DNA of 64,000 nt, from positions 3,100,001-3,164,000 of the forward strand of contig NZ_CP058561.1 of NCBI RefSeq assembly GCF_018141425.1, read 5' to 3'. The notes under the pieces are model-generated. The model ran no database searches. It saw only the letters and a list, made by a program, of their open reading frames with translations, and was not told the origin of the DNA. Made by a program: the position numbers and the translations under genes. The first letter of the stretch is position 1. The number at the start of each line of letters is the position of its first letter. Below, one piece after another: positions 7,096-32,942 of the stretch. The stretch is from Vallitalea guaymasensis. GTDB lineage: Bacteria; Bacillota; Clostridia; Lachnospirales; Vallitaleaceae.

Positions 7096-8199
7096 TCAAG
7101 ATTGGATCGATACATTAGCGTAGTTTTTTTTTGAAATAATTTGGTTGAAAAATTTCTTGTTGTTGAGTAATACTGTATGTTTAGGTTTATACTTAAGTGC
7201 TATATCATTATTAATAATTGCTTGTTTTATATTTCCAAGTTTATAGTTGCAGATACTCAATTCTGTATAAGGTATGAAATCCCAGAAATCATGTATGATA
7301 AATCCCCATCTCTTTTCTGGTTTAACTAATCTAGTAGCTAAATCAAAATAAAAAATTGCTTTATTATATTGATTATTTTTTTTATAATAGTAACCTATAT
7401 AACAACATATTTCTGCTCTAGGTAAATCATATTCTAAACTCCTTAGTAAGGTTTTAAAACTTTTTTTTGGCATATTTTTAGCTGTATATATTTTAGATAA
7501 ATCAATGCAAGAATCTATATAGTTTGAAAGGTATTCTCCTTCTGTATTCAAAAATTTTTCATAATAAATAATGGCTTTATCATATTTGCCATGATAATAA
7601 AGTTCTCTTGCATAATAAAACCAGTTTCTGGGGGACAGTTCTTTGTTATTGTCAAATTGTTTTTCTAATATTTTTAAATTTCTCTCTGATTTTGCATGCT
7701 CTTTTTTATGAGTAATACATACATCCGAAGTAAAAGTTTTCGCTCCTCTAAAGTCTATATATTCATGAACAGGACTAAACCATTTATAATTTCTTGTTCT
7801 TTTCAATAATCGTTCTCTATAGAAGGACATTGTTGGTTCACCATTTTTTATCATAAGATTGTACTTCATCATAACTACATCAATGGTTGGATTCAACATC
7901 GTTTTTATCTCTTTTAACTTAGCAATATCTTCTTTTAGAATAATATCATCTGCATCTAGCCAGAGAATATATTCTTTAGTGGCTAATGAGAAAGAGTAAT
8001 TTCTTGCTTTTGAGAAATTATCAACCCATTGGAAGTCATATATTTTATCTGTATATTTATGAGCAATTTCTTTAGTATTATCTTTTGAGCCAGTATCCAC
8101 AATAATAATTTCATCTACAATACCACATATGCTTTCCAAACATCTGTCAAGAACTAGAGATTCATCTCTCACAATCATACATAAACTAATTGTTATCAT
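7096..8199 (-). CDS. Family 2 glycosyltransferase with TPR-like C-terminus
   Basis: The 367-aa protein opens with a GT2 GT-A fold: Met-Ile-Val-Arg-Asp-Glu at residues 8-13, Ile-Val-Asp-Thr-Gly-Ser-Lys-Asp-Asn-Thr near 35, and the metal-binding [18 protein letters not shown] near 80. Residues from about 190 onward form tetratricopeptide-like helices with Tyr and Asn at repeating positions. This resembles SunS-like and surface-protein glycosyltransferases that act on polypeptides in the cytoplasm. It is divergent from the DUF11-repeat gene. Modification of one of the neighbouring surface-type proteins is plausible but inferred from position only. Confidence 0.85.
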   Translation of the reverse strand: MITISLCMIVRDESLVLDRCLESICGIVDEIIIVDTGSKDNTKEIAHKYTDKIYDFQWVDNFSKARNYSFSLATKEYILWLDADDIILKEDIAKLKEIKTMLNPTIDVVMMKYNLMIKNGEPTMSFYRERLLKRTRNYKWFSPVHEYIDFRGAKTFTSDVCITHKKEHAKSERNLKILEKQFDNNKELSPRNWFYYARELYYHGKYDKAIIYYEKFLNTEGEYLSNYIDSCIDLSKIYTAKNMPKKSFKTLLRSLEYDLPRAEICCYIGYYYKKNNQYNKAIFYFDLATRLVKPEKRWGFIIHDFWDFIPYTELSICNYKLGNIKQAIINNDIALKYKPKHTVLLNNKKFFNQIISKKNYANVSIQS

Positions 8200-8294
8200 A
8201 GTAACCTCACTTAACCCTACTATTACTTTAAATAGTATATGAAATAAATATTTGATTTGTGTATGAACAAGTTGTAGCTAATCTAATGTAAATA

Positions 8295-8303
8295 CATAGA
8301 ATA
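8295..8303 (+). promoter_or_regulatory. Possible sporulation-type -10 element (weak)
   Basis: CATAGAATA fits the sigma-K-type -10 pattern CATAnnnTA, 99 bases before the DUF11-repeat gene. I do not see a convincing -35 partner, so this is only suggestive. Confidence 0.2.
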
Positions 8304-8401
8304 TAGTAGGTGATTCTATGGGATTATTTAAATACATTTAAATTAGTAAAAAATAAGCTACTTATGATGAATTATACAAAATTTAAAAAGGAATGATTGT
8401 A

Positions 8402-11400
8402 ATGGCATTTGATCCAAATTTATTTATTGTTGATGTTACACCTAATCCTACTAATATAGTAATAGGTAGAGAAGGAAGGGTGATAATTACTGCATCGAAT
8501 AATAATCCAAGTGATTGGGGGTATAATTATACCTTACAAATGACGATACCAGATGGTGTATCTTTCGTAAATTCGGATATTCCAGTAACTTCTCAAGTAA
8601 CAAATATTGACAATACTATAACTCTTACTTGGCTAAATATTAAAGATTTAGCACCAAATGAAACAGATTATGAATTTACGGTTATATTACTAGCTGATGA
8701 AAACTATAGGGAAACAGGTTTGCCTGTTCCGTTTAATACAATATTGACACCAGTTGCTGTGGAAGCAACAGTAGATACAAAGCCTAGAGGCGATGGGGAA
8801 CCAGGTAATATACAATATACTAAAAGTGATTCTACAAGTGTAAAATCTTTACAATACTCAGTTACTAAAATTGCACCTGAAAAAATACCCAAAGGAGCCG
8901 GAATTCCTCTAGGAGATAGTCCACAATGGCCATTTGAATACGAATTTGTAATTGAAAATAATACTAGAATCGTATCTTCAGTAAGTATACTAGATATTTT
9001 AGATAATGGGATTCGTTTTATTGGACCAATTACTGCTGTAGGACCTGATTCTATTCAACTCCTACCACCGAATCCTATAGTAATTAATCCCACTCCTGGG
9101 GGACAAGACAATGTGACAATTGAATGGACTAATGTTGATTTGAGTGCTAATTCAATAAATATTGTAAAATTTGATGCAGCTATATGGAATAATTATACTG
9201 TTGGAGGCATTGAAAATTCAGGAGGTAGAATTCCACACCAAACTCCTATGAACAATATGGTAACATTAACTGGTACTTCAGGACCTGCTTCAAGTGAAGT
9301 TTCTACATTAGCGATGGACATAACAATTAATAAGAGTCAAAGTCCTATTAATTTGCTGATAGGAACAATTATTGATTATACTATTGTTTATCGGGTTAAC
9401 CAATATGATAATGTTGATGATGTATTAGTTGCAGATATAATTGGTGATGGGCAGACATTTCAGTCAGCAACACCAACACCTACATCTGTTTCACCAAAAG
9501 ATCCTTTAACTGGCGAAACCACTGTTACTTGGGATTTTGGAACACTTGTAGTTTCTTCATCTGGGACAATAACATTTTCTACTGTTGTTGATACCAATTA
9601 TTTTGCGACATCAGAGCTTGTTTTGGCAGGAGATACTCTAACCAATATAGTAGATATCAATGGAGAGAATGCTAATTTTGGTACTCAAACTCCGGACAGT
9701 TCAGAGAGTTTTGGAGTAATTCAGCTGCCTTCGATAGACAAAGAATTATTGAATTACTATTATAAAGATGGAACGTTGAAACCTTCTACTATAAATGCAA
9801 TGGCGCCTGGTGATTTTGTTGAATTTCAGATAACATATAATGCATCAGCAAATCCGCCACAGGCAGATGTAATAATTGATGATTTTTTCCCATTAGTTAT
9901 AGATGCGTCATCAATTACTTCAATTGTATATAATCCTTTTAATCCAATTTCAGGACCATTACCTACTGGAACTGAAGGAGTAGAGTGGATAATAGACAAT
10001 AGTGTTCCAGGAATGACTATATGGACTGTTATATTTAGGGTACAGATGAAAAATATTGAGTTCATAGGTTCTGAAAACAATTTAGCTAAGCTGAAATTAA
10101 TGAATTCGGATAATATGGTATTTAGTGGTCGTGATCAAGTATTAGTAAACTTTGGTGAACCTAATATAATCTTAGATAAAAATGTTGCTGGACCTTCTCC
10201 TAATGCTATATTACCAGGTCAAACATACACTTATTCAATTATTATTAGTAATCCTCAAAATATAGATGGAACAATTGTAGATGCCTTTGATGTAAGCCTT
10301 TCAGATATAATTCCAGATTTACTAACTTATGTTCCACTAAGTTTATCAGCGATTGCATCAGGAGGTACACCTATTTTTAACGTACCTGTATTTACTTCTC
10401 CAGATCAAATAAATATGGAAATAATACAATTAAAACCTGATGATGAGATTACATTAACCTATGAAGTGACCGTAGATGCAGGGATTGGTCCGGGTATTAG
10501 TCTAACAAATGATGCTGAAACTACTTCTCCGTATTCACAACCATTTGACCCTGTTGGTACTAATTATCAATATCCTAATTTAGAGCGTTCAGATAGTGAA
10601 ACATTAGTTAGTGCTGATACAGTGGTTGAAAAAACTGTTGATAATAATGTAACAGTAATTGGTGACACAGTTAATTATACAATTACTTGGACTGTTCCAG
10701 AGGGGTTACAAGCTTACAATGTTAGGATTACAGATATTTTGCCCGTTGGTCAATCATATGATAATGATCCTTCTCCTGTACCACCAGAATCTATTGTAGG
10801 TCAAACTATTACGTGGCCAACAATACCTGTTGTAGATGCTACTACTGGAGCCATAACATTAATATATTCTTTCAGAGCATCAATTGATAGTTCAACTTTT
10901 ATAGCTCCTGACTATACAGAAGTTCAGACTAATAGCGGTAGTGTAAACTGGAATTCAACACCTACAGGATTTCCAATGATGGAAACAGATTTACAAAATG
11001 TTAGAGTTGAGAATCCTCATATTAGTATTGAAAAGGGAGAAAGGAATATATCTAGAGGTGAAATTAATTATGTTACATCAACAAATGCAGTTGGTGGAGA
11101 AATAGTTGAGTTTAGAATAAGTATAGTCAATGATGGATCAGCAGATGCGTATAATATTGAAATTACCGATAAACAGGGTGGTCTAAGTACTGGATTGATA
11201 TTTATTCCATCAAGTATAGTTGCACCATCAGGAACAACAGCTATGTATCAGTTATTAACTAATCAGGTTGTTTGGAATATACCATACTTGGCAGAGGGTG
11301 ATTCATTAGAGTTGCTATTCAGAGTACGTATTGCAAAAGGATTGACTCCAGGAACTATTATAAATAATGATGGAACAGTAGATTCATATTCAAATATTAA

Positions 11401-11536
11401 TATGATGTTCATATATCCATCTGAGACTTCTAATCAAGTAGAAATTATTATAGAATCAGGTATTAGAGGAGATTTATTAGAGGCGTTATTGTGCTTAGAT
11501 GATATTATGATACAAGAATATAAAGATGTAGATTGA
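8402..11536 (+). CDS. DUF11-repeat beta-sandwich protein without signal peptide
   Basis: The start is ATG 8402: AAAAAGGA ends at 8392, 9 bases before it, while the in-frame ATG at 8393 touches the ribosome site. The 1044-aa protein is an N-terminal beta domain followed by about six DUF11-like repeats of about 120-150 residues. They have recurrent Lys-Xxx-Val, Gly-Asp-Xxx-Val-Xxx-Tyr/Phe-Xxx-Ile and Xxx-Ile-Thr-Asp-Ile-Leu-Pro motifs. DUF11 domains usually occur in cell-wall or adhesin proteins. Here there is no signal peptide, membrane segment, LPXTG motif or S-layer domain; the C-terminus is an acidic tail. Export by another route, or deposition on the spore from the mother-cell cytoplasm, would explain this. 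Confidence 0.8.
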   Translation: MAFDPNLFIVDVTPNPTNIVIGREGRVIITASNNNPSDWGYNYTLQMTIPDGVSFVNSDIPVTSQVTNIDNTITLTWLNIKDLAPNETDYEFTVILLADENYRETGLPVPFNTILTPVAVEATVDTKPRGDGEPGNIQYTKSDSTSVKSLQYSVTKIAPEKIPKGAGIPLGDSPQWPFEYEFVIENNTRIVSSVSILDILDNGIRFIGPITAVGPDSIQLLPPNPIVINPTPGGQDNVTIEWTNVDLSANSINIVKFDAAIWNNYTVGGIENSGGRIPHQTPMNNMVTLTGTSGPASSEVSTLAMDITINKSQSPINLLIGTIIDYTIVYRVNQYDNVDDVLVADIIGDGQTFQSATPTPTSVSPKDPLTGETTVTWDFGTLVVSSSGTITFSTVVDTNYFATSELVLAGDTLTNIVDINGENANFGTQTPDSSESFGVIQLPSIDKELLNYYYKDGTLKPSTINAMAPGDFVEFQITYNASANPPQADVIIDDFFPLVIDASSITSIVYNPFNPISGPLPTGTEGVEWIIDNSVPGMTIWTVIFRVQMKNIEFIGSENNLAKLKLMNSDNMVFSGRDQVLVNFGEPNIILDKNVAGPSPNAILPGQTYTYSIIISNPQNIDGTIVDAFDVSLSDIIPDLLTYVPLSLSAIASGGTPIFNVPVFTSPDQINMEIIQLKPDDEITLTYEVTVDAGIGPGISLTNDAETTSPYSQPFDPVGTNYQYPNLERSDSETLVSADTVVEKTVDNNVTVIGDTVNYTITWTVPEGLQAYNVRITDILPVGQSYDNDPSPVPPESIVGQTITWPTIPVVDATTGAITLIYSFRASIDSSTFIAPDYTEVQTNSGSVNWNSTPTGFPMMETDLQNVRVENPHISIEKGERNISRGEINYVTSTNAVGGEIVEFRISIVNDGSADAYNIEITDKQGGLSTGLIFIPSSIVAPSGTTAMYQLLTNQVVWNIPYLAEGDSLELLFRVRIAKGLTPGTIINNDGTVDSYSNINMMFIYPSETSNQVEIIIESGIRGDLLEALLCLDDIMIQEYKDVD

Positions 11537-11616
11537 TATATATGTTTATAGCTGTAAATCTAAATATCATAAATGTGATAATTAATAATTAAAACTCAGG
11601 CAAGAAAGGAACAATA

Positions 11617-12693
11617 TTGTTGGATAATAAATATATATCTGAATATAAAGAATGGACCGTACTAATATATGCTGCAGGCAATAATAATTTACAGGAATTT
11701 ATCTATAATCAATTTGAATCAATATTGACTACTACTAAAACTGAGAATGTCAATGTGATTGTTCAAATTTCTGAAGGACACTCTCCAAAAGGTGTGAATT
11801 TTAATGAATGCAAACGATATGTTATTGATAATAATAAAGCCATTTTATTGAAGGATCTAGGAAAAATTAGTATGGCTCAACCAGAAGAACTAAAAAAATT
11901 TGTTGTTTGGGGTAGCAATAGGTTTCCATCTAGACATATTGCGGTTATTATGTCAGGTCATAGTGCTGGTTTCGTAGGATTAATGAAAGATTGTTCAGGT
12001 GAACAGACTTCTTTTATGGGTATCAAAGGATTCGCAAAAACACTATATTTAGCAAGAAGAAGTATAAAAAGGTATATTGATGTTTTAGTGATGGATACAT
12101 GTTTTATGGATACTGTTGAAATATGGTATGACATTATAATAAATAGTAGAAATGCTGTAAAGTATGTAATCCTTCCACAGGATAATGCTCCAAAAGAAGG
12201 ATTGAGCTATAACGAAATAATTAATTCATTAAATAAAACTAAGAATGGATTTATATCCTATAACTCAATGAAAAGAATAATAAATGATGAGATGAAAAAA
12301 AATAATATATTTTGTGTATTTCTAGCAAGTGAATATTTCAGTAAGTTAAAGGAGATTATAGACCTTTTTTCACAATTATTATTAATGAAGGACAAAAATA
12401 TAAATAATGACATTCAAGCATTAGATTTTATTCCATTAATAGATTTATGTAATAATGATATTTTAATGGATTCAGATATAAATAAATGCAATAAAGTTAT
12501 TAAATATATTCTAGACAAAATTATTTTAGAACCTGATTCTAATATCATTGAAAGAGAAAGAAGAGGGTTAAAGATATATTTTCCACATAACTATGATGTT
12601 TATTCTAAGTTTAAAGGAATGTATAATTCAATGAAATTTAGTCATAACAATATGTGGACACAAGTAATAGATGATAAATATATGGGTAAGTAG
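11617..12693 (+). CDS. Clostripain-family (C11) cysteine peptidase
   Basis: A TTG start at 11617 (or the adjacent TTG at 11620) follows GAAAGGA by 6-9 bases. The 358-aa protein has the C11 fold: Trp-Thr-Val-Leu-Ile-Tyr-Ala-Ala-Gly near the N-terminus, catalytic His in Gly-His-Ser-Ala-Gly (H115), and catalytic Cys in Met-Asp-Thr-Cys-Phe-Met (C162). C11 enzymes cleave after Arg or Lys, often after self-maturation. Secreted clostripains carry signal and pro-regions; this one has neither. Placed between two large repeat proteins, it may process one of them or a spore-surface protein. That role is inference. Confidence 0.85.
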   Translation: MLDNKYISEYKEWTVLIYAAGNNNLQEFIYNQFESILTTTKTENVNVIVQISEGHSPKGVNFNECKRYVIDNNKAILLKDLGKISMAQPEELKKFVVWGSNRFPSRHIAVIMSGHSAGFVGLMKDCSGEQTSFMGIKGFAKTLYLARRSIKRYIDVLVMDTCFMDTVEIWYDIIINSRNAVKYVILPQDNAPKEGLSYNEIINSLNKTKNGFISYNSMKRIINDEMKKNNIFCVFLASEYFSKLKEIIDLFSQLLLMKDKNINNDIQALDFIPLIDLCNNDILMDSDINKCNKVIKYILDKIILEPDSNIIERERRGLKIYFPHNYDVYSKFKGMYNSMKFSHNNMWTQVIDDKYMGK

Positions 12694-12770
12694 TGATACA
12701 TCTGAAATGTTAACATTAAATACGATTGAAGAATTAAATTGTTTAATAGAGTTAGAAGGAGAGAAATATT

Positions 12771-15700
12771 GTGAAAGATTTGCGGTATTATAATCCACGT
12801 TCTAAATCATTGGATTGTTCGGATAATAGCCAAATAATATGTATTTTTAAGGAAATATTAAAAGAGATTAGATGTATTCAAGAACTATTGTATTTCCCAG
12901 AAACTGATCTTGATGAAATAGAAGAAGTTATATGGGTAAAAAATGATCAATGTAGTTTAAGCGAAATAGAAAGAAAAATAAGTAGAATAGATAAATTACT
13001 AAGAAATCCCTGTTTTGGATTGAAAGAAATTAAAATAGAAGTCGCTAATATTGAAGAAATATCATATAAGATTAATAAAAGACTCAAAAAAGTTTATTGT
13101 AAGTTAATTAATCCAAAATATGGATTAAAAGAGATAAAAAAAGAAGTATATTATATTGAAAAATCAGTTGATAGAATTATATGCGATTTAGAAGAAATTA
13201 AGAGTGGAGTTAATACAATAGAGGAAGCTGTATTGAATCCCAAATATGGATTGAAGGAAATAAAAAAAGAAGTAAAAGCAATAGAAAAATCTGTATTAAA
13301 TCCTAAATATGGATTAAAGGAAATTAAGAATGAAGTAAGAACCATAGAAGACACAGTGTTGAGTCCAACGTATGGGTTGGAAGAGATTAAAAGCGAAGTA
13401 AGTGTAATAGAAGAAATAGTCCTGAGTCCAACCTATGGATTAGAAGAGATAAAGAGTGAAGTAAGTGTCATAGAAGAGACAGTGTTGAGCCCAACGTACG
13501 GGTTGGAAGAGATTAAAAGCGAAGTAAATGTAATAGAAGAAATAGTGTTGAGTCCAACGTATGGATTAGAAGAGATAAAGAGTGAAGTCAAAACGATAGA
13601 AGAGACCGTGTTGAGTCCAACGTATGGATTAGAAGAGATAAAGAGTGAAGTAAGTATAATAGAAGAGACCGTGTTGAGTCCAACGTATGGATTAGAAGAA
13701 ATAAAGAGTGAAGTAAATATAATAGAAGAGACCGTACTAAGTGCAACGTATGGGTTGGAAGAGATTAAAAGCGAAGTAAGTGTAATAGAAGAAATAGTCC
13801 TGAGTCCAACCTATGGATTAGAAGAGATAAAGAGTGAAGTAAGTGTCATAGAAGAGACCGTGTTGAGTCCAACGTATGGATTAGAAGAAATAAAGAGTGA
13901 AGTCAAAACGATAGAAGAGACTGTGTTGAGTGCAACTTATGGATTAGAAGAAATAAAGAGTGAAGTAAATATCATAGAAGAAACAGTGTTAAATCCGATG
14001 TATGGATTAGAAGAAATAAAGAGCGAAGTAAATATCATAGAAGAAACAGTATTAAATCCGATGTATGGATTAGAAGAAATAAAGAGTGAAGTCAAAACGA
14101 TAGAAGAGACTGTGTTGAGTGCAACTTATGGATTAGAAGAAATAAAGAGTGAAGTAAATATAATAGAAGAGACCGTACTAAGTGCAACGTATGGGTTGGA
14201 AGAGATTAAAAGCGAAGTAAATGTAATAGAAGAAATAGTGTTGAGTCCAACGTATGGATTAGAAGAGATAAAGAGTGAAGTAAGTATAATAGAAGAGACC
14301 GTGTTGAGTCCAACCTATGGATTAGAAGAAATAAAGAGTGAAGTCAAAACGATAGAAGAGACTGTGTTGAGTGCAACTTATGGATTAGAAGAAATAAAGA
14401 GTGAAGTAAATATAATAGAAGAGACCGTACTAAGTGCAACGTATGGGTTGGAAGAGATTAAAAGCGAAGTAAGTGTAATAGAAGAAATAGTCCTGAGTCC
14501 AACCTATGGATTAGAAGAGATAAAGAGTGAAGTAAGTATAATAGAAGAGACCGTGTTGAGTCCAACGTATGGATTAGAAGAAATAAAGAGTGAAGTAAGT
14601 GTCATAGAAGAGACAGTGTTGAGTGCAACGTACGGATTAGAAGAGATAAAGAGTGAAGTAAGTGTCATAGAAGAGACAGTGTTGAGCCCAACGTACGGGT
14701 TGGAAGAGATTAAAAGCGAAGTAAATGTAATAGAAGAAATAGTGTTGAGTCCAACGTATGGATTAGAAGAAATAAAGAGTGAAGTCAAAACGATAGAAGA
14801 GACAGTGTTGAGTGCAACTTATGGATTGGAAGAGATAAAGAGTGAAGTAAGTATAATAGAAGAGACCGTGTTGAGTCCAACGTATGGATTAGAAGAAATA
14901 AAGAGTGAAGTAAGTGTCATAGAAGAGACAGTGTTGAGTGCAACGTACGGATTAGAAGAGATAAAGAGTGAAGTAAGTGTCATAGAAGAGACAGTGTTGA
15001 GCCCAACGTACGGGTTGGAAGAGATTAAAAGCGAAGTAAATGTAATAGAAGAAATAGTGTTGAGTCCAACGTATGGATTAGAAGAAATAAAGAGTGAAGT
15101 CAAAACGATAGAAGAGACAGTGTTGAGTGCAACGTACGGGTTGGAAGAGATTAAAAGCGAAGTAAATGTAATAGAAGAAATAGTGTTGAGTCCGATATAT
15201 GGATTAGAAGAAATAAAGAGTGAAGTAAATATCATAGAAGAAACAGTATTAAATCCGATGTATGGATTAGAGGAAATTAAGAGTGAAGTAAATGTCATAG
15301 AAGAGACAGTGTTGAGTGCAACGTATGGATTAGAAGAAATAAAGAGTGAAGTAAATATAATAGAAGAGACCGTACTAAGTGCAACCTATGGATTAGAAGA
15401 AATAAAGAGCGAAGTAAATATAATAGAAGAAACAGTATTAAATCCGATGTATGGATTAGAAGAAATAAAGAGTGAAGTAAATGTCATAGAAGAGACCGTG
15501 TTGAGTGCAACGTATGGATTAGAAGAGATAAAGAGCGAAGTAAATATCATAGAAGAAACAGTATTAAATCCGATGTATGGATTAGAGGAAATTAAGAGTG
15601 AAGTAAATGTCATAGAAGAGACTGTGTTGAGTGCAACGTATGGATTAGAAGAAATAAAGAGTGAAGTAAATATAATAGAAGAGACCGTACTAAGTGCAAC

Positions 15701-17303
15701 CTATGGATTAGAAGAAATAAAGAGCGAAGTAAATATCATAGAAGAAACAGTATTAAATCCGATGTATGGATTAGAGGAAATTAAGAGTGAAGTAAGTATA
15801 ATAGAAGAGACAGTATTAAGTGCAACGTATGGATTAGAAGAGATAAAGAGCGAAGTAAATATCATAGAAGAAACAGTATTAAATCCGATGTATGGATTAG
15901 AAGAAATAAAGAGTGAAGTAAATGTCATAGAAGAAACAGTATTAAATCCGATGTATGGATTAGAAGAAATAAAGAGTGAAGTAAATATAATAGAAGAGAC
16001 CGTACTAAGTGCAACGTATGGATTGGAAGAGATAAAGAGCGAAGTAAATATAATAGAAGAAACAGTATTAAATCCGATGTATGGATTAGAAGAAATAAAG
16101 AGTGAAGTAAGTGTTATAGAAGAGACAGTACTAAGCGCAACCTATGGATTAGAAGAGATAAAGAGCGAAGTAAATATCATAGAAGAAACAGTGTTAAATC
16201 CGATGTATGGATTAGAAGAAATAAAGAGTGAAGTAAGTGTTATAGAAGAGACAGTACTAAGCGCAACCTATGGATTAGAAGAAATAAAGAGCGAAGTAAA
16301 TATCATAGAAGAAACAGTATTAAATCCGATGTATGGATTAGAGGAAATCAAGAATGAAGTAAGTATAATAGAAGAGACAGTATTAAGTGCAACGTATGGA
16401 TTAGAAGAGATAAAGAGCGAAGTAAATATAATAGAAGAGACCGTACTAAGTGCAACGTATGGATTGGAAGAGATAAAGAGCGAAGTAAATATCATAGAAG
16501 AAACAGTATTAAATCCGATGTATGGATTAGAAGAAATAAAGAGTGAAGTAAATGTCATAGAAGAAACAGTATTAAATCCGATGTATGGATTAGAGGAAAT
16601 CAAGAATGAAGTAAGTATAATAGAAGAGACAGTATTAAGTGCAACGTATGGATTGGAAGAGATAAAGAGTGAAGTAAATATCATAGAAGAAACTGTTCTA
16701 AACCCAGCATATGGATTATTTGAAATCAAGGCTGAAGTAATTGATATAATTAATGATATTCAAAGTCCTATATTTGGTCTATACGAAGTAAAAACTGAAA
16801 TAGCAGCAATAGAAGAAGCGGTATTAAGTGCAACATATGGATTGGAAGAAATAAAATATGAAGTGAGTAATATTGAGAATATTTTAACAACAACAGATGA
16901 TTTAACAACAGGTCCATTTTTTATCTCTCAAAGTTCACAAATGCCAGCTAGTGTAATAATTAAGATATTAAACAATACTAATCTAGCTAAAGATGTAATT
17001 ATAAGAGTATATGAATATGGAAATAATAACGCAAGAAATACTGTAATTCCACAAGGTGGTACAACAATGCCGATAAATATTTTACCAAATCAATGTGTAG
17101 ATATTGAGTATTCTATATCAAGAAGTGACAATACAAATAATCAATGTGAAGTTCAGTTATTCGATATAGTCGAGGGTGTTTATTGTTGGGTGACTGTTAG
17201 AACGGAAGCTGTAGATACTACACTAAATACAGTTACGCCTATATCTGGCAATACTTTTAGACATGCAGAATTAGTTCCATTGATTACTGATTTCCCTGTT
17301 TGA
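12771..17303 (+). CDS. Giant 21-residue-repeat protein (about 58 repeats)
   Basis: GTG start at 12771, with AGAAGGAG nine bases upstream. The 1510-aa protein has an N-terminal helical region (about 1-110), degenerate repeats (to 196), 53 near-identical 21-residue units (197-1309), three degenerate units, then a C-terminal beta-rich domain of about 138 residues. Each unit contains a variable Leu-Ser/Asn-Pro/Ala-Thr/Met turn, the core YGLEEIKSEV and an IEETV-like end. The length equals three heptads and hydrophobic spacing suggests regular helices broken at the Pro/Ala-Tyr-Gly turn. No signal peptide, anchor or membrane segment is present. I recognise no characterised family; a long fibrous or scaffolding structure is the likely form. 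Confidence 0.85.
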   Translation: MKDLRYYNPRSKSLDCSDNSQIICIFKEILKEIRCIQELLYFPETDLDEIEEVIWVKNDQCSLSEIERKISRIDKLLRNPCFGLKEIKIEVANIEEISYKINKRLKKVYCKLINPKYGLKEIKKEVYYIEKSVDRIICDLEEIKSGVNTIEEAVLNPKYGLKEIKKEVKAIEKSVLNPKYGLKEIKNEVRTIEDTVLSPTYGLEEIKSEVSVIEEIVLSPTYGLEEIKSEVSVIEETVLSPTYGLEEIKSEVNVIEEIVLSPTYGLEEIKSEVKTIEETVLSPTYGLEEIKSEVSIIEETVLSPTYGLEEIKSEVNIIEETVLSATYGLEEIKSEVSVIEEIVLSPTYGLEEIKSEVSVIEETVLSPTYGLEEIKSEVKTIEETVLSATYGLEEIKSEVNIIEETVLNPMYGLEEIKSEVNIIEETVLNPMYGLEEIKSEVKTIEETVLSATYGLEEIKSEVNIIEETVLSATYGLEEIKSEVNVIEEIVLSPTYGLEEIKSEVSIIEETVLSPTYGLEEIKSEVKTIEETVLSATYGLEEIKSEVNIIEETVLSATYGLEEIKSEVSVIEEIVLSPTYGLEEIKSEVSIIEETVLSPTYGLEEIKSEVSVIEETVLSATYGLEEIKSEVSVIEETVLSPTYGLEEIKSEVNVIEEIVLSPTYGLEEIKSEVKTIEETVLSATYGLEEIKSEVSIIEETVLSPTYGLEEIKSEVSVIEETVLSATYGLEEIKSEVSVIEETVLSPTYGLEEIKSEVNVIEEIVLSPTYGLEEIKSEVKTIEETVLSATYGLEEIKSEVNVIEEIVLSPIYGLEEIKSEVNIIEETVLNPMYGLEEIKSEVNVIEETVLSATYGLEEIKSEVNIIEETVLSATYGLEEIKSEVNIIEETVLNPMYGLEEIKSEVNVIEETVLSATYGLEEIKSEVNIIEETVLNPMYGLEEIKSEVNVIEETVLSATYGLEEIKSEVNIIEETVLSATYGLEEIKSEVNIIEETVLNPMYGLEEIKSEVSIIEETVLSATYGLEEIKSEVNIIEETVLNPMYGLEEIKSEVNVIEETVLNPMYGLEEIKSEVNIIEETVLSATYGLEEIKSEVNIIEETVLNPMYGLEEIKSEVSVIEETVLSATYGLEEIKSEVNIIEETVLNPMYGLEEIKSEVSVIEETVLSATYGLEEIKSEVNIIEETVLNPMYGLEEIKNEVSIIEETVLSATYGLEEIKSEVNIIEETVLSATYGLEEIKSEVNIIEETVLNPMYGLEEIKSEVNVIEETVLNPMYGLEEIKNEVSIIEETVLSATYGLEEIKSEVNIIEETVLNPAYGLFEIKAEVIDIINDIQSPIFGLYEVKTEIAAIEEAVLSATYGLEEIKYEVSNIENILTTTDDLTTGPFFISQSSQMPASVIIKILNNTNLAKDVIIRVYEYGNNNARNTVIPQGGTTMPINILPNQCVDIEYSISRSDNTNNQCEVQLFDIVEGVYCWVTVRTEAVDTTLNTVTPISGNTFRHAELVPLITDFPV
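13359..16697 (+). repeat. 63-bp minisatellite, 53 in-phase units, with 315-bp higher-order repeats
   Basis: Fifty-three consecutive 63-bp units run without any length change and encode the 21-residue repeats. Unit types alternate (Ser-Pro-Thr, Ser-Ala-Thr, Asn-Pro-Met). Blocks of five units (315 bp) are repeated almost exactly: units 22-26 match 27-31, and 34-38 match 39-43 when counted from the first degenerate copy. This shows recent expansion by block duplication. Degenerate units flank the array at about 13233-13358 and 16698-16886. Confidence 0.95.
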
Positions 17304-17331
17304 TAATTGAATGAGTAAATAAATTAATTAG

Positions 17332-17351
17332 CGTCAATCAGTAGATTGACG
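17332..17351. terminator. Hairpin between convergent repeat-protein and splB genes
   Basis: CGTCAATC, loop AGTA, GATTGACG, followed by a T-rich run on the + strand. It probably ends transcription of the repeat-protein gene, and may also serve splB from the other side. Confidence 0.65.
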
Positions 17352-17417
17352 TTGAATTTTGTTTAATAATGTAATGTATGTTAATCTCTAAAACATACTA
17401 GAAGTGATGATTATCAT

Positions 17418-18428
17418 TTATACAATATAACTTATTGTGGCATTAGGGAAATAGTGAGCAATCAGGTCTTTAAAATATCTGGCGGCATCTTCTCTAATAT
17501 CTAGGTCATAACAGAACTTACCACGTCCTTTTGGACACATTTTTGATCTATCAAATACATTAAGAACACCCTTTAGAGCGGCGCTGTTAATGGTATCATT
17601 GGCATATCCATAAGTCATGAAGATAAGTTCAAAGAACAATTGATCTTTTAGCTTGTCATCAAGTTTTTTGGACAATGATTCCAACAATTCTCTATACATC
17701 TCCTGCCAATTATCCAAAAGGATTATAGGTGCTATATTGACACCAACTCTGTATCCTGCATTAAACATCTTGTTTGCGGCATCTATTCTATCTTCAAGTT
17801 TAGAAGTGCCTATTTCAACTTTTCTAATAATATAATCTGGATTGACACTAATCCTCATCTGAGTATTTCCATTATGGTCAGCATCAAGAAGATAATCAAC
17901 CATAGCAAATTTTGTGGCAAAGGTGCAAGTTGCATTATCTAGTTTGCCAAACTCTTCTATAGCCCATCTCAAATTACCTGTAATGGTATTTTCAAGAACC
18001 ATATCACTAGTTGAACCTATTTCATATATTTTTCTTTCGCCTACTTGTTTAATTTTCCTTTTGACTGAATTAATCATTGCTTCTCTATTAACGAATATGC
18101 GTAGATAAGAACCTTTGAAGAAGTTACATACCAGGTAGCAATATGTACACATAGCGGAGCAGCCTGAAGATGTAAAAGGAACAATGAAATCTGCAGATAG
18201 TTTATTAGGAGTTAACTGTAAACTTTTTCTAATACCAAGAACCAGATATTTTTTGAACTCAACAAATTTTTCATCAGGTGCTTTTTTTATGAATTCTACA
18301 TCATGATGTTTTTCTATGGGTATCATTTCTATATTCATGTTTTTATAACGCTCGTAAAGGGTTTTCCCTAATTCATATTCTAGAATTTTCTCTTCATAAA
18401 GTACTTTTGCTGGTATAAAATTATCCAA
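17418..18428 (-). CDS. splB: Spore photoproduct lyase (radical SAM)
   Basis: This 336-aa radical SAM enzyme repairs the thymine dimer formed in UV-irradiated spore DNA. The cluster motif is Cys-X3-Cys-X2-Cys at C90, C94 and C97, followed by Tyr98. Family-typical segments include Thr-Ser-Asp near 140, Ala-Thr-Lys-Phe and Arg-Ile-Ser-Val-Asn-Pro. The start is TTG at 18428 behind AGAGGTGAT. The position matching the B. subtilis hydrogen-donor Cys141 (in a Cys-Thr-Ser-Asp context) appears here as Ser139 in Gly-Ser-Thr-Ser-Asp. I believe other clostridial homologues share this, but cannot check. Its presence indicates an endospore former. Confidence 0.9.
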   Translation of the reverse strand: MDNFIPAKVLYEEKILEYELGKTLYERYKNMNIEMIPIEKHHDVEFIKKAPDEKFVEFKKYLVLGIRKSLQLTPNKLSADFIVPFTSSGCSAMCTYCYLVCNFFKGSYLRIFVNREAMINSVKRKIKQVGERKIYEIGSTSDMVLENTITGNLRWAIEEFGKLDNATCTFATKFAMVDYLLDADHNGNTQMRISVNPDYIIRKVEIGTSKLEDRIDAANKMFNAGYRVGVNIAPIILLDNWQEMYRELLESLSKKLDDKLKDQLFFELIFMTYGYANDTINSAALKGVLNVFDRSKMCPKGRGKFCYDLDIREDAARYFKDLIAHYFPNATISYIV

Positions 18429-18648
18429 GATATCACCTCTATAGTATTTAATATAATGATATATTTAGTATTGCTATTTCCATATAAAATATTCTTAACC
18501 AATTAGCTGCAAATCTAACTATGGATATTGGGTCAATAATGGATTATACTAGTATATGGAAACATTTATAAAAGGATAGTGTATTCTATTACTGAAAAAA
18601 GTAATAAGTTATTTAATAAAATTTTATATAAAATAATAGGAGACTAAA

Positions 18649-29312: not shown

Positions 29313-31113
29313 TGTCAAGCATTTTTGAAAATGTCCCGAAATTTTCAAAATATAAGCACCGATTTTTAGGTGCTTTAATAACTTCCGCATTTATTCCACG
29401 GTTCTATTTACAACGAGCCTCTAATGGCATGTTTTGATGCATCAGAGGCATCCCCTAACCTGTTTTGTGGCATAGCAAGTAAAGCATGGGATGCCTTGTA
29501 AAGAAAGCATAACATGCCATTTTCTCATTATAAATAGACTTTCGCGGCATAAAAGCTATTTTTATGGAATTTTATTTAGCAATGGTCAAAGCTTGGGAGT
29601 ACATTGCAGACTCAAAGGATTGTTCATAATAGTGTTTTTGCTTTTTAACAAACTTTGTAAAAGTACTCTTTTTCCACGGATGAGACATTGGTGGAATATA
29701 TCTTTTGCGAGGTTTTTCAGTGCTTTGGGGGTAATGGAAATTTCTTGATGTATATTCATGTTCTGGTATCTCGTCTAGAGTGTATACTTTTTCTCCTATG
29801 CTTGTAAATAGTTGTCCATCAAAAGATTTAATAACTAGAGCCAGTGTACCTTTATGGTAATAAACAGGGTAGCCATTAGAATCTATAGGTTTATAATACT
29901 TTTTGTTTAATCTGATACAGTGACCATTATCAATCTTACGATTTACAAGAACTGCAAGAGTAAGATTAATTTTTTCATTATCGGGTTGTTTTTCAAAAAC
30001 AGATTTGATATTATTAAGAGGCAGAGCAAATTTAGCATTATATTTTTGTATGTAGGAGTCCAAAAATATATTTGCTTGTTCTATGGTTGTTGCGCCTGCT
30101 AATCTTAATTCGATTGGTAGGCGTGATTGTAATGTTTGGAACATTCGTTCTACGCGACCTTTGGCTTGTGGATTGCTGGTTGTTCTGATTTCGACCCCTA
30201 ACTGTTTACAAGCATAACCAAACTGAGTAAAAGTATCCTTTTCAAGAGAAGGAGATTTTTTTTGCCTATATTCAAAGACAGTACGTCTATCAGTATAAAA
30301 CATATAGGGAATACCATGATTATTTAAAATCTGATGAAAAACATTATAGTAGCCTTTCAACGTTTCTTGTCTATCAAAATATGCTCCAACAACAGTTCCT
30401 GTAGCATCATCAACAGCAATATGTAGATGAGTTTTTTTATCCCCAAACCAAAAGTGTACAGAAGCATCCATTTGAATCATCTCACCTAAAAAAGCACAGC
30501 GTGGTCTACGAGGATGAGCATCTTCAAGAGCAACTATGTTTTCTGTAATTTTAGCAACCTCTTTCTTTGATTTAGTAGCATTTCTTTGTTTTTTCAACTT
30601 AAGACGCATTCTCTTTTTAGTAACACGTCTAGCTTTAGGTGAAAGCATCCCTTCAGACATAAGAATGTTTTGTACAGTACTTACAGAAACCTTGATTTTT
30701 TCATGCTCTTCTAGCAACTCACAATAATGAGTGAAGTTTGTGTTATAATATTTTGTTCGATAAAGATTTAAGATATTTTCTTTGATATTGTCTTCTATTG
30801 TATGTGATGGTTTACGACCACGATTACCATGGATAAAGAAAATCTTTCCTTGATCTAAATAACCTTTGATTAAACGATTTATATTTCGTCTAGTACAGCC
30901 TAGTTTCAGAGCTGCATTGTCCTTGTTCCCTTTAGTTTCAACTAATCTTTTAATAATTTCATATTTATATTGTTCTGTCATGTTTAAGTCTACCTTTCTA
31001 ATGATAATCACCTCTGCCTATAAAATACATGAGGTTTTATTATATACCATAATTAAAAAAAATAGGACATAATCAATTGTGGTACACTAAGACATTATCA
31101 TAAATCAATCATA
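29313..31113 (-). mobile_element. IS1202-like insertion sequence, copy 1 (1801 bp)
   Basis: The element starts TGTCAAGC and ends CAATCATA. Its ends form imperfect inverted repeats of about 24 bases, the best shared block being AATGTC at 20-25 bases in. It carries one transposase gene on the minus strand. Family placement rests on the transposase type and on the 27-bp duplication, which is a known mark of the IS1202 group. Confidence 0.85.
29572..30981 (-). CDS. IS1202/ISNCY-type DDE transposase, copy 1
   Basis: I choose ATG 30981 (469 aa) because AAAGG lies 8 bases upstream; an in-frame GTG at 31011 has no spaced ribosome site. An N-terminal helix-turn-helix (residues about 5-50, ending Arg-Asn-Ile-Asn-Arg-Leu) is followed by a second DNA-binding region and an rve/DDE core. 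The acidic residues are Asp in Gln-Met-Asp-Ala-Ser, Asp in Tyr-Thr-Asp-Arg-Arg, and Glu in Gly-Arg-Val-Glu-Arg-Met-Phe. A C-terminal beta domain follows. The gene is intact and identical to copy 2 by inspection, so it is probably recent and active. Confidence 0.9.
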   Translation of the reverse strand: MTEQYKYEIIKRLVETKGNKDNAALKLGCTRRNINRLIKGYLDQGKIFFIHGNRGRKPSHTIEDNIKENILNLYRTKYYNTNFTHYCELLEEHEKIKVSVSTVQNILMSEGMLSPKARRVTKKRMRLKLKKQRNATKSKKEVAKITENIVALEDAHPRRPRCAFLGEMIQMDASVHFWFGDKKTHLHIAVDDATGTVVGAYFDRQETLKGYYNVFHQILNNHGIPYMFYTDRRTVFEYRQKKSPSLEKDTFTQFGYACKQLGVEIRTTSNPQAKGRVERMFQTLQSRLPIELRLAGATTIEQANIFLDSYIQKYNAKFALPLNNIKSVFEKQPDNEKINLTLAVLVNRKIDNGHCIRLNKKYYKPIDSNGYPVYYHKGTLALVIKSFDGQLFTSIGEKVYTLDEIPEHEYTSRNFHYPQSTEKPRKRYIPPMSHPWKKSTFTKFVKKQKHYYEQSFESAMYSQALTIAK

Positions 31114-31141: not shown

Positions 31142-32942
31142 TGTCAAGCATTTTTGAAAATGTCCCGAAATTTTCAAAATATAAGCACCGATTTTTAGGT
31201 GCTTTAATAACTTCCGCATTTATTCCACGGTTCTATTTACAACGAGCCTCTAATGGCATGTTTTGATGCATCAGAGGCATCCCCTAACCTGTTTTGTGGC
31301 ATAGCAAGTAAAGCATGGGATGCCTTGTAAAGAAAGCATAACATGCCATTTTCTCATTATAAATAGACTTTCGCGGCATAAAAGCTATTTTTATGGAATT
31401 TTATTTAGCAATGGTCAAAGCTTGGGAGTACATTGCAGACTCAAAGGATTGTTCATAATAGTGTTTTTGCTTTTTAACAAACTTTGTAAAAGTACTCTTT
31501 TTCCACGGATGAGACATTGGTGGAATATATCTTTTGCGAGGTTTTTCAGTGCTTTGGGGGTAATGGAAATTTCTTGATGTATATTCATGTTCTGGTATCT
31601 CGTCTAGAGTGTATACTTTTTCTCCTATGCTTGTAAATAGTTGTCCATCAAAAGATTTAATAACTAGAGCCAGTGTACCTTTATGGTAATAAACAGGGTA
31701 GCCATTAGAATCTATAGGTTTATAATACTTTTTGTTTAATCTGATACAGTGACCATTATCAATCTTACGATTTACAAGAACTGCAAGAGTAAGATTAATT
31801 TTTTCATTATCGGGTTGTTTTTCAAAAACAGATTTGATATTATTAAGAGGCAGAGCAAATTTAGCATTATATTTTTGTATGTAGGAGTCCAAAAATATAT
31901 TTGCTTGTTCTATGGTTGTTGCGCCTGCTAATCTTAATTCGATTGGTAGGCGTGATTGTAATGTTTGGAACATTCGTTCTACGCGACCTTTGGCTTGTGG
32001 ATTGCTGGTTGTTCTGATTTCGACCCCTAACTGTTTACAAGCATAACCAAACTGAGTAAAAGTATCCTTTTCAAGAGAAGGAGATTTTTTTTGCCTATAT
32101 TCAAAGACAGTACGTCTATCAGTATAAAACATATAGGGAATACCATGATTATTTAAAATCTGATGAAAAACATTATAGTAGCCTTTCAACGTTTCTTGTC
32201 TATCAAAATATGCTCCAACAACAGTTCCTGTAGCATCATCAACAGCAATATGTAGATGAGTTTTTTTATCCCCAAACCAAAAGTGTACAGAAGCATCCAT
32301 TTGAATCATCTCACCTAAAAAAGCACAGCGTGGTCTACGAGGATGAGCATCTTCAAGAGCAACTATGTTTTCTGTAATTTTAGCAACCTCTTTCTTTGAT
32401 TTAGTAGCATTTCTTTGTTTTTTCAACTTAAGACGCATTCTCTTTTTAGTAACACGTCTAGCTTTAGGTGAAAGCATCCCTTCAGACATAAGAATGTTTT
32501 GTACAGTACTTACAGAAACCTTGATTTTTTCATGCTCTTCTAGCAACTCACAATAATGAGTGAAGTTTGTGTTATAATATTTTGTTCGATAAAGATTTAA
32601 GATATTTTCTTTGATATTGTCTTCTATTGTATGTGATGGTTTACGACCACGATTACCATGGATAAAGAAAATCTTTCCTTGATCTAAATAACCTTTGATT
32701 AAACGATTTATATTTCGTCTAGTACAGCCTAGTTTCAGAGCTGCATTGTCCTTGTTCCCTTTAGTTTCAACTAATCTTTTAATAATTTCATATTTATATT
32801 GTTCTGTCATGTTTAAGTCTACCTTTCTAATGATAATCACCTCTGCCTATAAAATACATGAGGTTTTATTATATACCATAATTAAAAAAAATAGGACATA
32901 ATCAATTGTGGTACACTAAGACATTATCATAAATCAATCATA
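31142..32942 (-). mobile_element. IS1202-like insertion sequence, copy 2 (1801 bp)
   Basis: Same length, ends and orientation as copy 1, displaced by exactly 1829 bp. I see no difference between the copies in the stretches compared. Its right end abuts the second 27-bp target repeat. Confidence 0.85.
31401..32810 (-). CDS. IS1202/ISNCY-type DDE transposase, copy 2
   Basis: Identical in translation to the transposase at 29572-30981, with the same start choice (ATG 32810 after AAAGG), helix-turn-helix and DDE residues. Having two intact copies in tandem raises the chance that the dimer is still mobile or unstable. Confidence 0.9.
   Translation of the reverse strand: MTEQYKYEIIKRLVETKGNKDNAALKLGCTRRNINRLIKGYLDQGKIFFIHGNRGRKPSHTIEDNIKENILNLYRTKYYNTNFTHYCELLEEHEKIKVSVSTVQNILMSEGMLSPKARRVTKKRMRLKLKKQRNATKSKKEVAKITENIVALEDAHPRRPRCAFLGEMIQMDASVHFWFGDKKTHLHIAVDDATGTVVGAYFDRQETLKGYYNVFHQILNNHGIPYMFYTDRRTVFEYRQKKSPSLEKDTFTQFGYACKQLGVEIRTTSNPQAKGRVERMFQTLQSRLPIELRLAGATTIEQANIFLDSYIQKYNAKFALPLNNIKSVFEKQPDNEKINLTLAVLVNRKIDNGHCIRLNKKYYKPIDSNGYPVYYHKGTLALVIKSFDGQLFTSIGEKVYTLDEIPEHEYTSRNFHYPQSTEKPRKRYIPPMSHPWKKSTFTKFVKKQKHYYEQSFESAMYSQALTIAK

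Follow-up and report, generated by a model that had tools for sequence, protein, structure and literature searches.

A predicted O-glycosylated spore-surface stalk on a non-collagen repeat scaffold, encoded beside DUF11 and C11 genes in Vallitalea guaymasensis

Analysis of a 64,000-nucleotide stretch of the Vallitalea guaymasensis genome (the window, part of one 5.63-Mb contig) revealed a gene cluster that probably encodes a spore-surface stalk, a reading that draws on sequence and on analogy with described spore systems. The stalk would be made in the mother cell and O-glycosylated on a scaffold other than collagen, and is accompanied here by a DUF11 protein plus a peptidase of family C11. 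The features of the locus are listed below.

7096..8199, minus strand: SgtA-like glycosyltransferase with GT2 and TPR regions, 367 aa (Pfam GT2, 75 bits, plus TPR)
8402..11536, plus strand: DUF11-repeat beta-sandwich protein, 1044 aa (DUF11 in five stretches, 92 bits)
11617..12693, plus strand: leaderless clostripain-family (C11) peptidase, 358 aa (Peptidase_C11, PF03415, 70.9 bits against a cut-off of 25.8)
12771..17303, plus strand: putative stalk protein, 1510 aa, with an N-terminal region, a 21-aa repeat array and a C-terminal beta-sandwich
13014..16877, plus strand: array of ~59 units (59–60), consensus YGLEEIKSEVxxIEETVLSPT
16899..17300, plus strand: C-terminal beta-sandwich domain of the repeat protein (DLTTGPF...NTFRHAEL)
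17328..17355, plus strand: terminator-like hairpin 3' of the repeat gene
17418–18428, minus strand: splB (SPL, 257 bits)

Open reading frames and Pfam matches confirmed the arrangement given in a preliminary description of this DNA, with genes for a DUF11 protein, a clostripain-family peptidase and a 1510-aa repeat protein in a row on the same strand. The TPR-glycosyltransferase named there as a divergent neighbour was likewise found, upstream of the DUF11 gene, with GT2 and TPR assigned by Pfam. The DUF11 reading frame has possible starts at 8393 and 8402 and ends at 11536, and the orthologues, which begin with MAFDPNLF, support the start at 8402. The gaps of 81 bp (DUF11 to C11) and 78 bp (C11 to repeat gene), together with the hairpin, fit a single three-gene operon. 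N-terminal hydropathy peaked at 0.7–1.4 in the first 40 residues of the three proteins, compared with 2.7–3.2 in three secreted or membrane controls from the same window, and no 19-aa stretch exceeded 1.5; by this measure all three lack both signal peptide and membrane helix, as had been claimed. The splB gene downstream of the repeat gene, previously cited as a sign that the organism sporulates, is absent beside the clusters in a congener (G004) and in C. lacusfryxellense; it was excluded as a system component and is a chance neighbour. Elsewhere in the window, two 479-aa reading frames with identical N- and C-terminal sequences (29572–31011 and 31401–32840, minus strand) lie ~390 bp apart and are probably duplicated insertion-sequence genes.

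The repeat protein consists of an N-terminal region of ~82 aa, followed by ~59 units of 21 aa and a beta-rich C-terminal domain. The units share a mean DNA identity of 84%, and at the protein level are near-invariant at most positions. Structure prediction of the 21-residue repeat, put forward earlier as a check, was carried out with AlphaFold2 and yielded one 15-residue helix and a turn per unit, with a beta-sandwich at the C-terminus (mean pLDDT 74, pTM 0.46). The C-terminal domain gave no match in Pfam or NCBIfam, nor in a sequence search of solved structures. Fold comparison gave a best Z of 8.1 to 1nc7 (TM1070/ASRT-like or CBM beta-sandwich), a common arrangement, and Ena1C as a weak fold match. 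Searches with this domain also returned weak matches in G266, G366 and G506, which looked unrelated or doubtful.

With the repeat alignment as query, 84,980 species genomes were scanned and 43 loci detected, or ~39 once single-motif matches were dropped; L098–L101, with a single motif each, were rejected as chance matches. The loci are confined to Bacillota, including Bacillus, Neobacillus, Clostridium, Desulforamulus, Thermovorax and Cellulosilyticum, and no relative was found among 2.9 million viral contigs. The related proteins carry 1 to 160 units and reach ~4000 aa. Many have N-termini rich in Cys and His, and hydropathy, read as above, shows no signal peptide in any that includes the start. 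One paralogue of 4016 aa and 160 units, in the congener G004 (L007, 3769–15819), has TPR glycosyltransferases on its flanks. Restriction to spore formers, as proposed earlier, agrees with the confinement to Bacillota and with the presence of spoIVA in 37 of the 41 genomes searched (the 41 include three congeners without the repeat family; the four lacking spoIVA are metagenome assemblies). Within the Clostridia, however, spoIVA adds little: the link to sporulation genes is weak there because the gene is common anyway (178 of 237 good genomes).

The window glycosyltransferase contains a GT2 region at residues 5–148 and TPRs at ~190–291. Among solved structures it matched GmaR (2.9e-24) and SunS (5e-14), and it scored 61.2 bits against the SunS equivalog TIGR04195, below the cut-off of 350. 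GmaR is a cytoplasmic flagellin glycosyltransferase. In C. difficile, the glycosyltransferase SgtA has a GT-A domain at 1–260 and TPRs at 262–358, is encoded immediately upstream of bclA3, and adds O-GlcNAc to Thr/Ser of GPT in the collagen-like BclA3 (PMC7157674). The window enzyme has the same layout of an N-terminal GT-A/GT2 domain followed by C-terminal TPRs, the likeness being one of architecture, and members of its family sit beside genes for repeat or collagen-like proteins. Flanking genes were read for 28 relatives from other Clostridia, and 14 of these relatives adjoin collagen-like genes. For the repeat family, 20 of 30 assessable loci have a glycosyltransferase gene close to the repeat gene, almost always on the same strand and within ~230 bp of the last repeat gene, and a few have none. 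In a tree of 47 glycosyltransferases, 19 repeat-linked enzymes including that of the window form one clade (support 98/96), a result favoured by the sampling, since the repeat-linked set was limited to enzymes scoring >300 bits against the window enzyme and the Desulforamulus fusions were left out. The window enzyme is predicted to be a soluble O-glycosyltransferase for the repeat protein.

The same genome encodes a second SgtA-like glycosyltransferase, downstream of a Cys-rich collagen-like protein (C1:3628000-3642000, L132, 1056–2651 and 6794–7909), with a long masked stretch between the two genes. It groups with the collagen-linked enzymes in the tree, and its position beside the collagen-like gene means that this genome has both scaffold types. 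Six loci of Desulforamulus and relatives (L073, L070, L067, L080, L088 and L093) encode a single repeat protein or a pair, the pair in tandem wherever both members were seen, and the adjoining glycosyltransferase genes are larger and more distant (~290–670 aa); these are perhaps a second glycosyltransferase solution for the same repeat scaffold. At L050 / L058 (G583, matching the C. rectalis genome of L087), a glycosyltransferase gene adjoins a remnant C-terminal domain, which ends in an apparent insertion sequence at the contig end.

Comparison of repeat arrays by linkage revealed a candidate acceptor. Ser or Thr directly before [Y/F]GL, in the turn of the repeat, had a mean of 0.84 in glycosyltransferase-linked loci, compared with 0.19 for the unlinked ones (p=2.5e-4, in a test that is not fully independent because the unlinked loci come from few lineages), and the next-best position was EIK[S/T]E (p=0.0025). 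The turn motif P-S/T-Y/F-G-L thus commonly carries Ser/Thr where a glycosyltransferase is linked and rarely where it is not, and P-[S/T] is likewise the context in which SgtA acts. High turn Ser/Thr also occurs in two unlinked loci, L006 and L010, the first of which lies in a genome (G004) that has such glycosyltransferases elsewhere. We regard these statistics as support for the turn residue as a putative acceptor, not as proof. At L061, an RmlD-type rhamnose synthesis gene (17536–18441) follows the repeat and glycosyltransferase genes, hinting at rhamnose in the glycan. Glycosylation, to which the preliminary description attached a "perhaps", is now the best-supported part of the spore-surface reading, as a prediction from sequence.

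Sigma-E/sigma-K promoters, proposed earlier as a check, have matching motifs at two places in the window.

8233..8260, minus strand: sigma-K-type promoter motif of the glycosyltransferase gene (33 bp before its start codon), CACA-N16-CATATACTA, with its first C at 8261
8274..8303, plus strand: CATA-type (sigma-E/K) promoter motif of the DUF11-C11-repeat operon, GTAGCTAATCTAATGTAAATACATAGAATA

The former exactly matches the published sigma-K consensus (quoted in PMC5749712), and a motif like the latter also precedes the DUF11 gene in L014, L063 and L081. Against a background of 2–3% in other genes, such motifs were enriched before all three gene types: CATAnnnTA (sigma-E/K type) stands before 4 of 5 DUF11 genes, compared with 10 of 346 other genes (p=8e-6). 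A sigma-K-like pattern stands before 7 of the 38 repeat genes (p=2e-4) and 9 of the 38 glycosyltransferase genes (p=5e-6), compared with 8 of 346 other genes. From these motifs we infer mother-cell (sigma-E/K) transcription during sporulation.

The DUF11 and C11 genes are adjacent in all five loci where they were found together: one each in the window, G003 and G004, and two in C. lacusfryxellense. No C11 as close as those five (~39–47% identity to the window protein) was seen elsewhere among 246 relatives. One of the C. lacusfryxellense loci (L063) has all four genes on one strand in the order DUF11-C11-repeat-glycosyltransferase. The G004 cluster runs repeat-DUF11-C11 with no glycosyltransferase beside it, and in G003 neither the repeat protein nor the glycosyltransferase is present at the locus. 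The locus is composed of two modules, DUF11 with C11 and repeat protein with glycosyltransferase: the predicted co-occurrence of the four genes recurred in C. lacusfryxellense, but elsewhere they come apart along this line. A leaderless 2842-aa DUF11 protein in G338 (L137, 2500–11028) has an N-terminus like that of the window DUF11 protein and no C11 gene alongside.

DUF11 proteins are known from spore appendages (PMC5749712, PMC11952670). The claim of an undescribed system may hold for the repeat family (GLxEIKxEV), of which no description was found in open-access papers, but not for the DUF11 component, such appendage proteins being already known. The window DUF11 protein has DUF11 domains without a signal peptide, as in spore-appendage proteins. 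It gave no match in a sequence search of solved structures, and its AlphaFold2 model was unusable (pLDDT 33). An invariant Arg-Gly near its C-terminus (R1022), preceded by a conserved Val or Ile, is a candidate cleavage site. The peptidase belongs to family C11, with an invariant His (SGH[SG]AGF) and Cys162 (DTC), and falls far below the cut-off of the clostripain equivalog TIGR02806 (32.5 against 550 bits). Absence of Arg from the repeat array was discarded as a mark of C11 specificity, since most of the family has arrays with little Arg. YabG, a clan-CD-like spore protease, processes coat proteins (PMC12445089).

In the proposed mechanism, sigma-E/K promoters of the CATA type would drive transcription in the mother cell during sporulation, and the leaderless repeat protein would form a stalk in a glycosylated layer or nap on the outside of the endospore. 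Its N-terminal region, Cys/His-rich in many relatives, could anchor the stalk to the coat or exosporium, with the array of 21-residue helix-turn units as shaft and the C-terminal beta-sandwich as head. The soluble GT2+TPR enzyme would glycosylate Ser/Thr of the turn P-[S/T]-[Y/F]-G-L in the mother-cell cytoplasm, a step modelled on the action of SgtA at the GPT triplets of BclA3, with O-GlcNAc as the sugar by analogy. The DUF11 protein may contribute a further structural part to the layer, comparable to the DUF11 proteins in the spore appendages of C. taeniosporum. The weakest step is that of the C11 peptidase, which would probably trim DUF11 or some other spore protein at Arg, by analogy with the processing of coat proteins by YabG.

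The spore-surface reading offered earlier is favoured by the confinement to Bacillota, the mother-cell-type promoters, the Cys/His-rich N-termini, the leaderless relatives and the SgtA architecture of the glycosyltransferase, but its grouping of the three genes gives way to two separable modules. These modules may even be neighbours by chance, each its own spore-layer unit with no joint work, a less likely but serious alternative: most repeat-glycosyltransferase loci are without DUF11 and C11, G003 has DUF11 and C11 alone, and a DUF11 relative stands alone in G338. Against chance, both modules meet in the window, in G004 (without the glycosyltransferase) and in C. lacusfryxellense, with differing orders and families.

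The usual extracellular location of DUF11 and C11 proteins, and the precedent of GmaR, which acts on flagellin in the cytoplasm, could instead indicate vegetative surface proteins decorated beforehand and exported without a signal; the mother-cell-type promoters, Bacillota-only presence and Cys/His-rich N-termini make this unlikely, and no secretion genes were seen next to the cluster. A non-surface scaffold or stress protein in the cytoplasm of the sporulating cell would accord with helical repeats and the absence of an export signal, but appears similarly improbable given the parallel with BclA-SgtA in architecture and glycosyltransferase linkage, and rhamnose synthesis among some neighbours (RmlD in L061). 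A long repeat protein with a beta-rich tip might also be a phage tail fibre or prophage remnant, a reading that is highly implausible in view of the viral-contig result and a neighbourhood in which no phage genes were seen.

Returning to the glycosylated spore-surface stalk, we lean towards a new and widespread class of surface fibres on the endospores of Bacilli and Clostridia, where a 21-residue helix-turn repeat replaces collagen for SgtA-type O-glycosylation by its own glycosyltransferase clade and, in some species, is joined to DUF11 and a leaderless C11. Spore-surface glycoproteins govern spore sticking, clumping and recognition, and the well-studied ones are collagen-like. A non-collagen scaffold in the same genetic slot beside the same type of glycosyltransferase would, if true, make the sugar coat, and not collagen, the conserved function, and glycosyltransferase specificity could be compared across two scaffold types, even inside this one genome.

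Among known systems, GmaR and SunS are GT2-fold relatives that modify proteins in the cytoplasm, with different substrates. The window peptidase shares the catalytic His and Cys of clostripain but has no signal peptide and is 358 aa long; YabG, a sporulation protease of proposed clan CD, would be of the same clan as C11, and the peptidase has no match to its family by Pfam or NCBIfam. DUF11 domains and a link to sporulation are common to the spore-appendage proteins of C. taeniosporum (CRD1/2, P29a/b region) and B. cereus (CrdA-C) and to F-Anchor-3, from which the window DUF11 protein differs in its distinct 1044-aa architecture and its C11 partner. No Pfam match to the F-ENA/Ena subunit domains DUF4183 and DUF3992 was found in the cluster proteins or the C-terminal domains tested. 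The exosporium leader TIGR03720 is not among the NCBIfam matches of the repeat protein, which has 21-aa GLxEIKxEV units in place of BclA-type Gly-X-Y collagen repeats, and no protein among the loci examined carries both. The BclA3/SgtA system of C. difficile is similar in having a leaderless surface-type Pro-Ser/Thr-rich repeat protein beside a GT-A+TPR enzyme; here the scaffold is a 21-residue helix-turn and not a collagen triple helix, the C-terminal domain is of another family, and the glycosyltransferases form their own clade.
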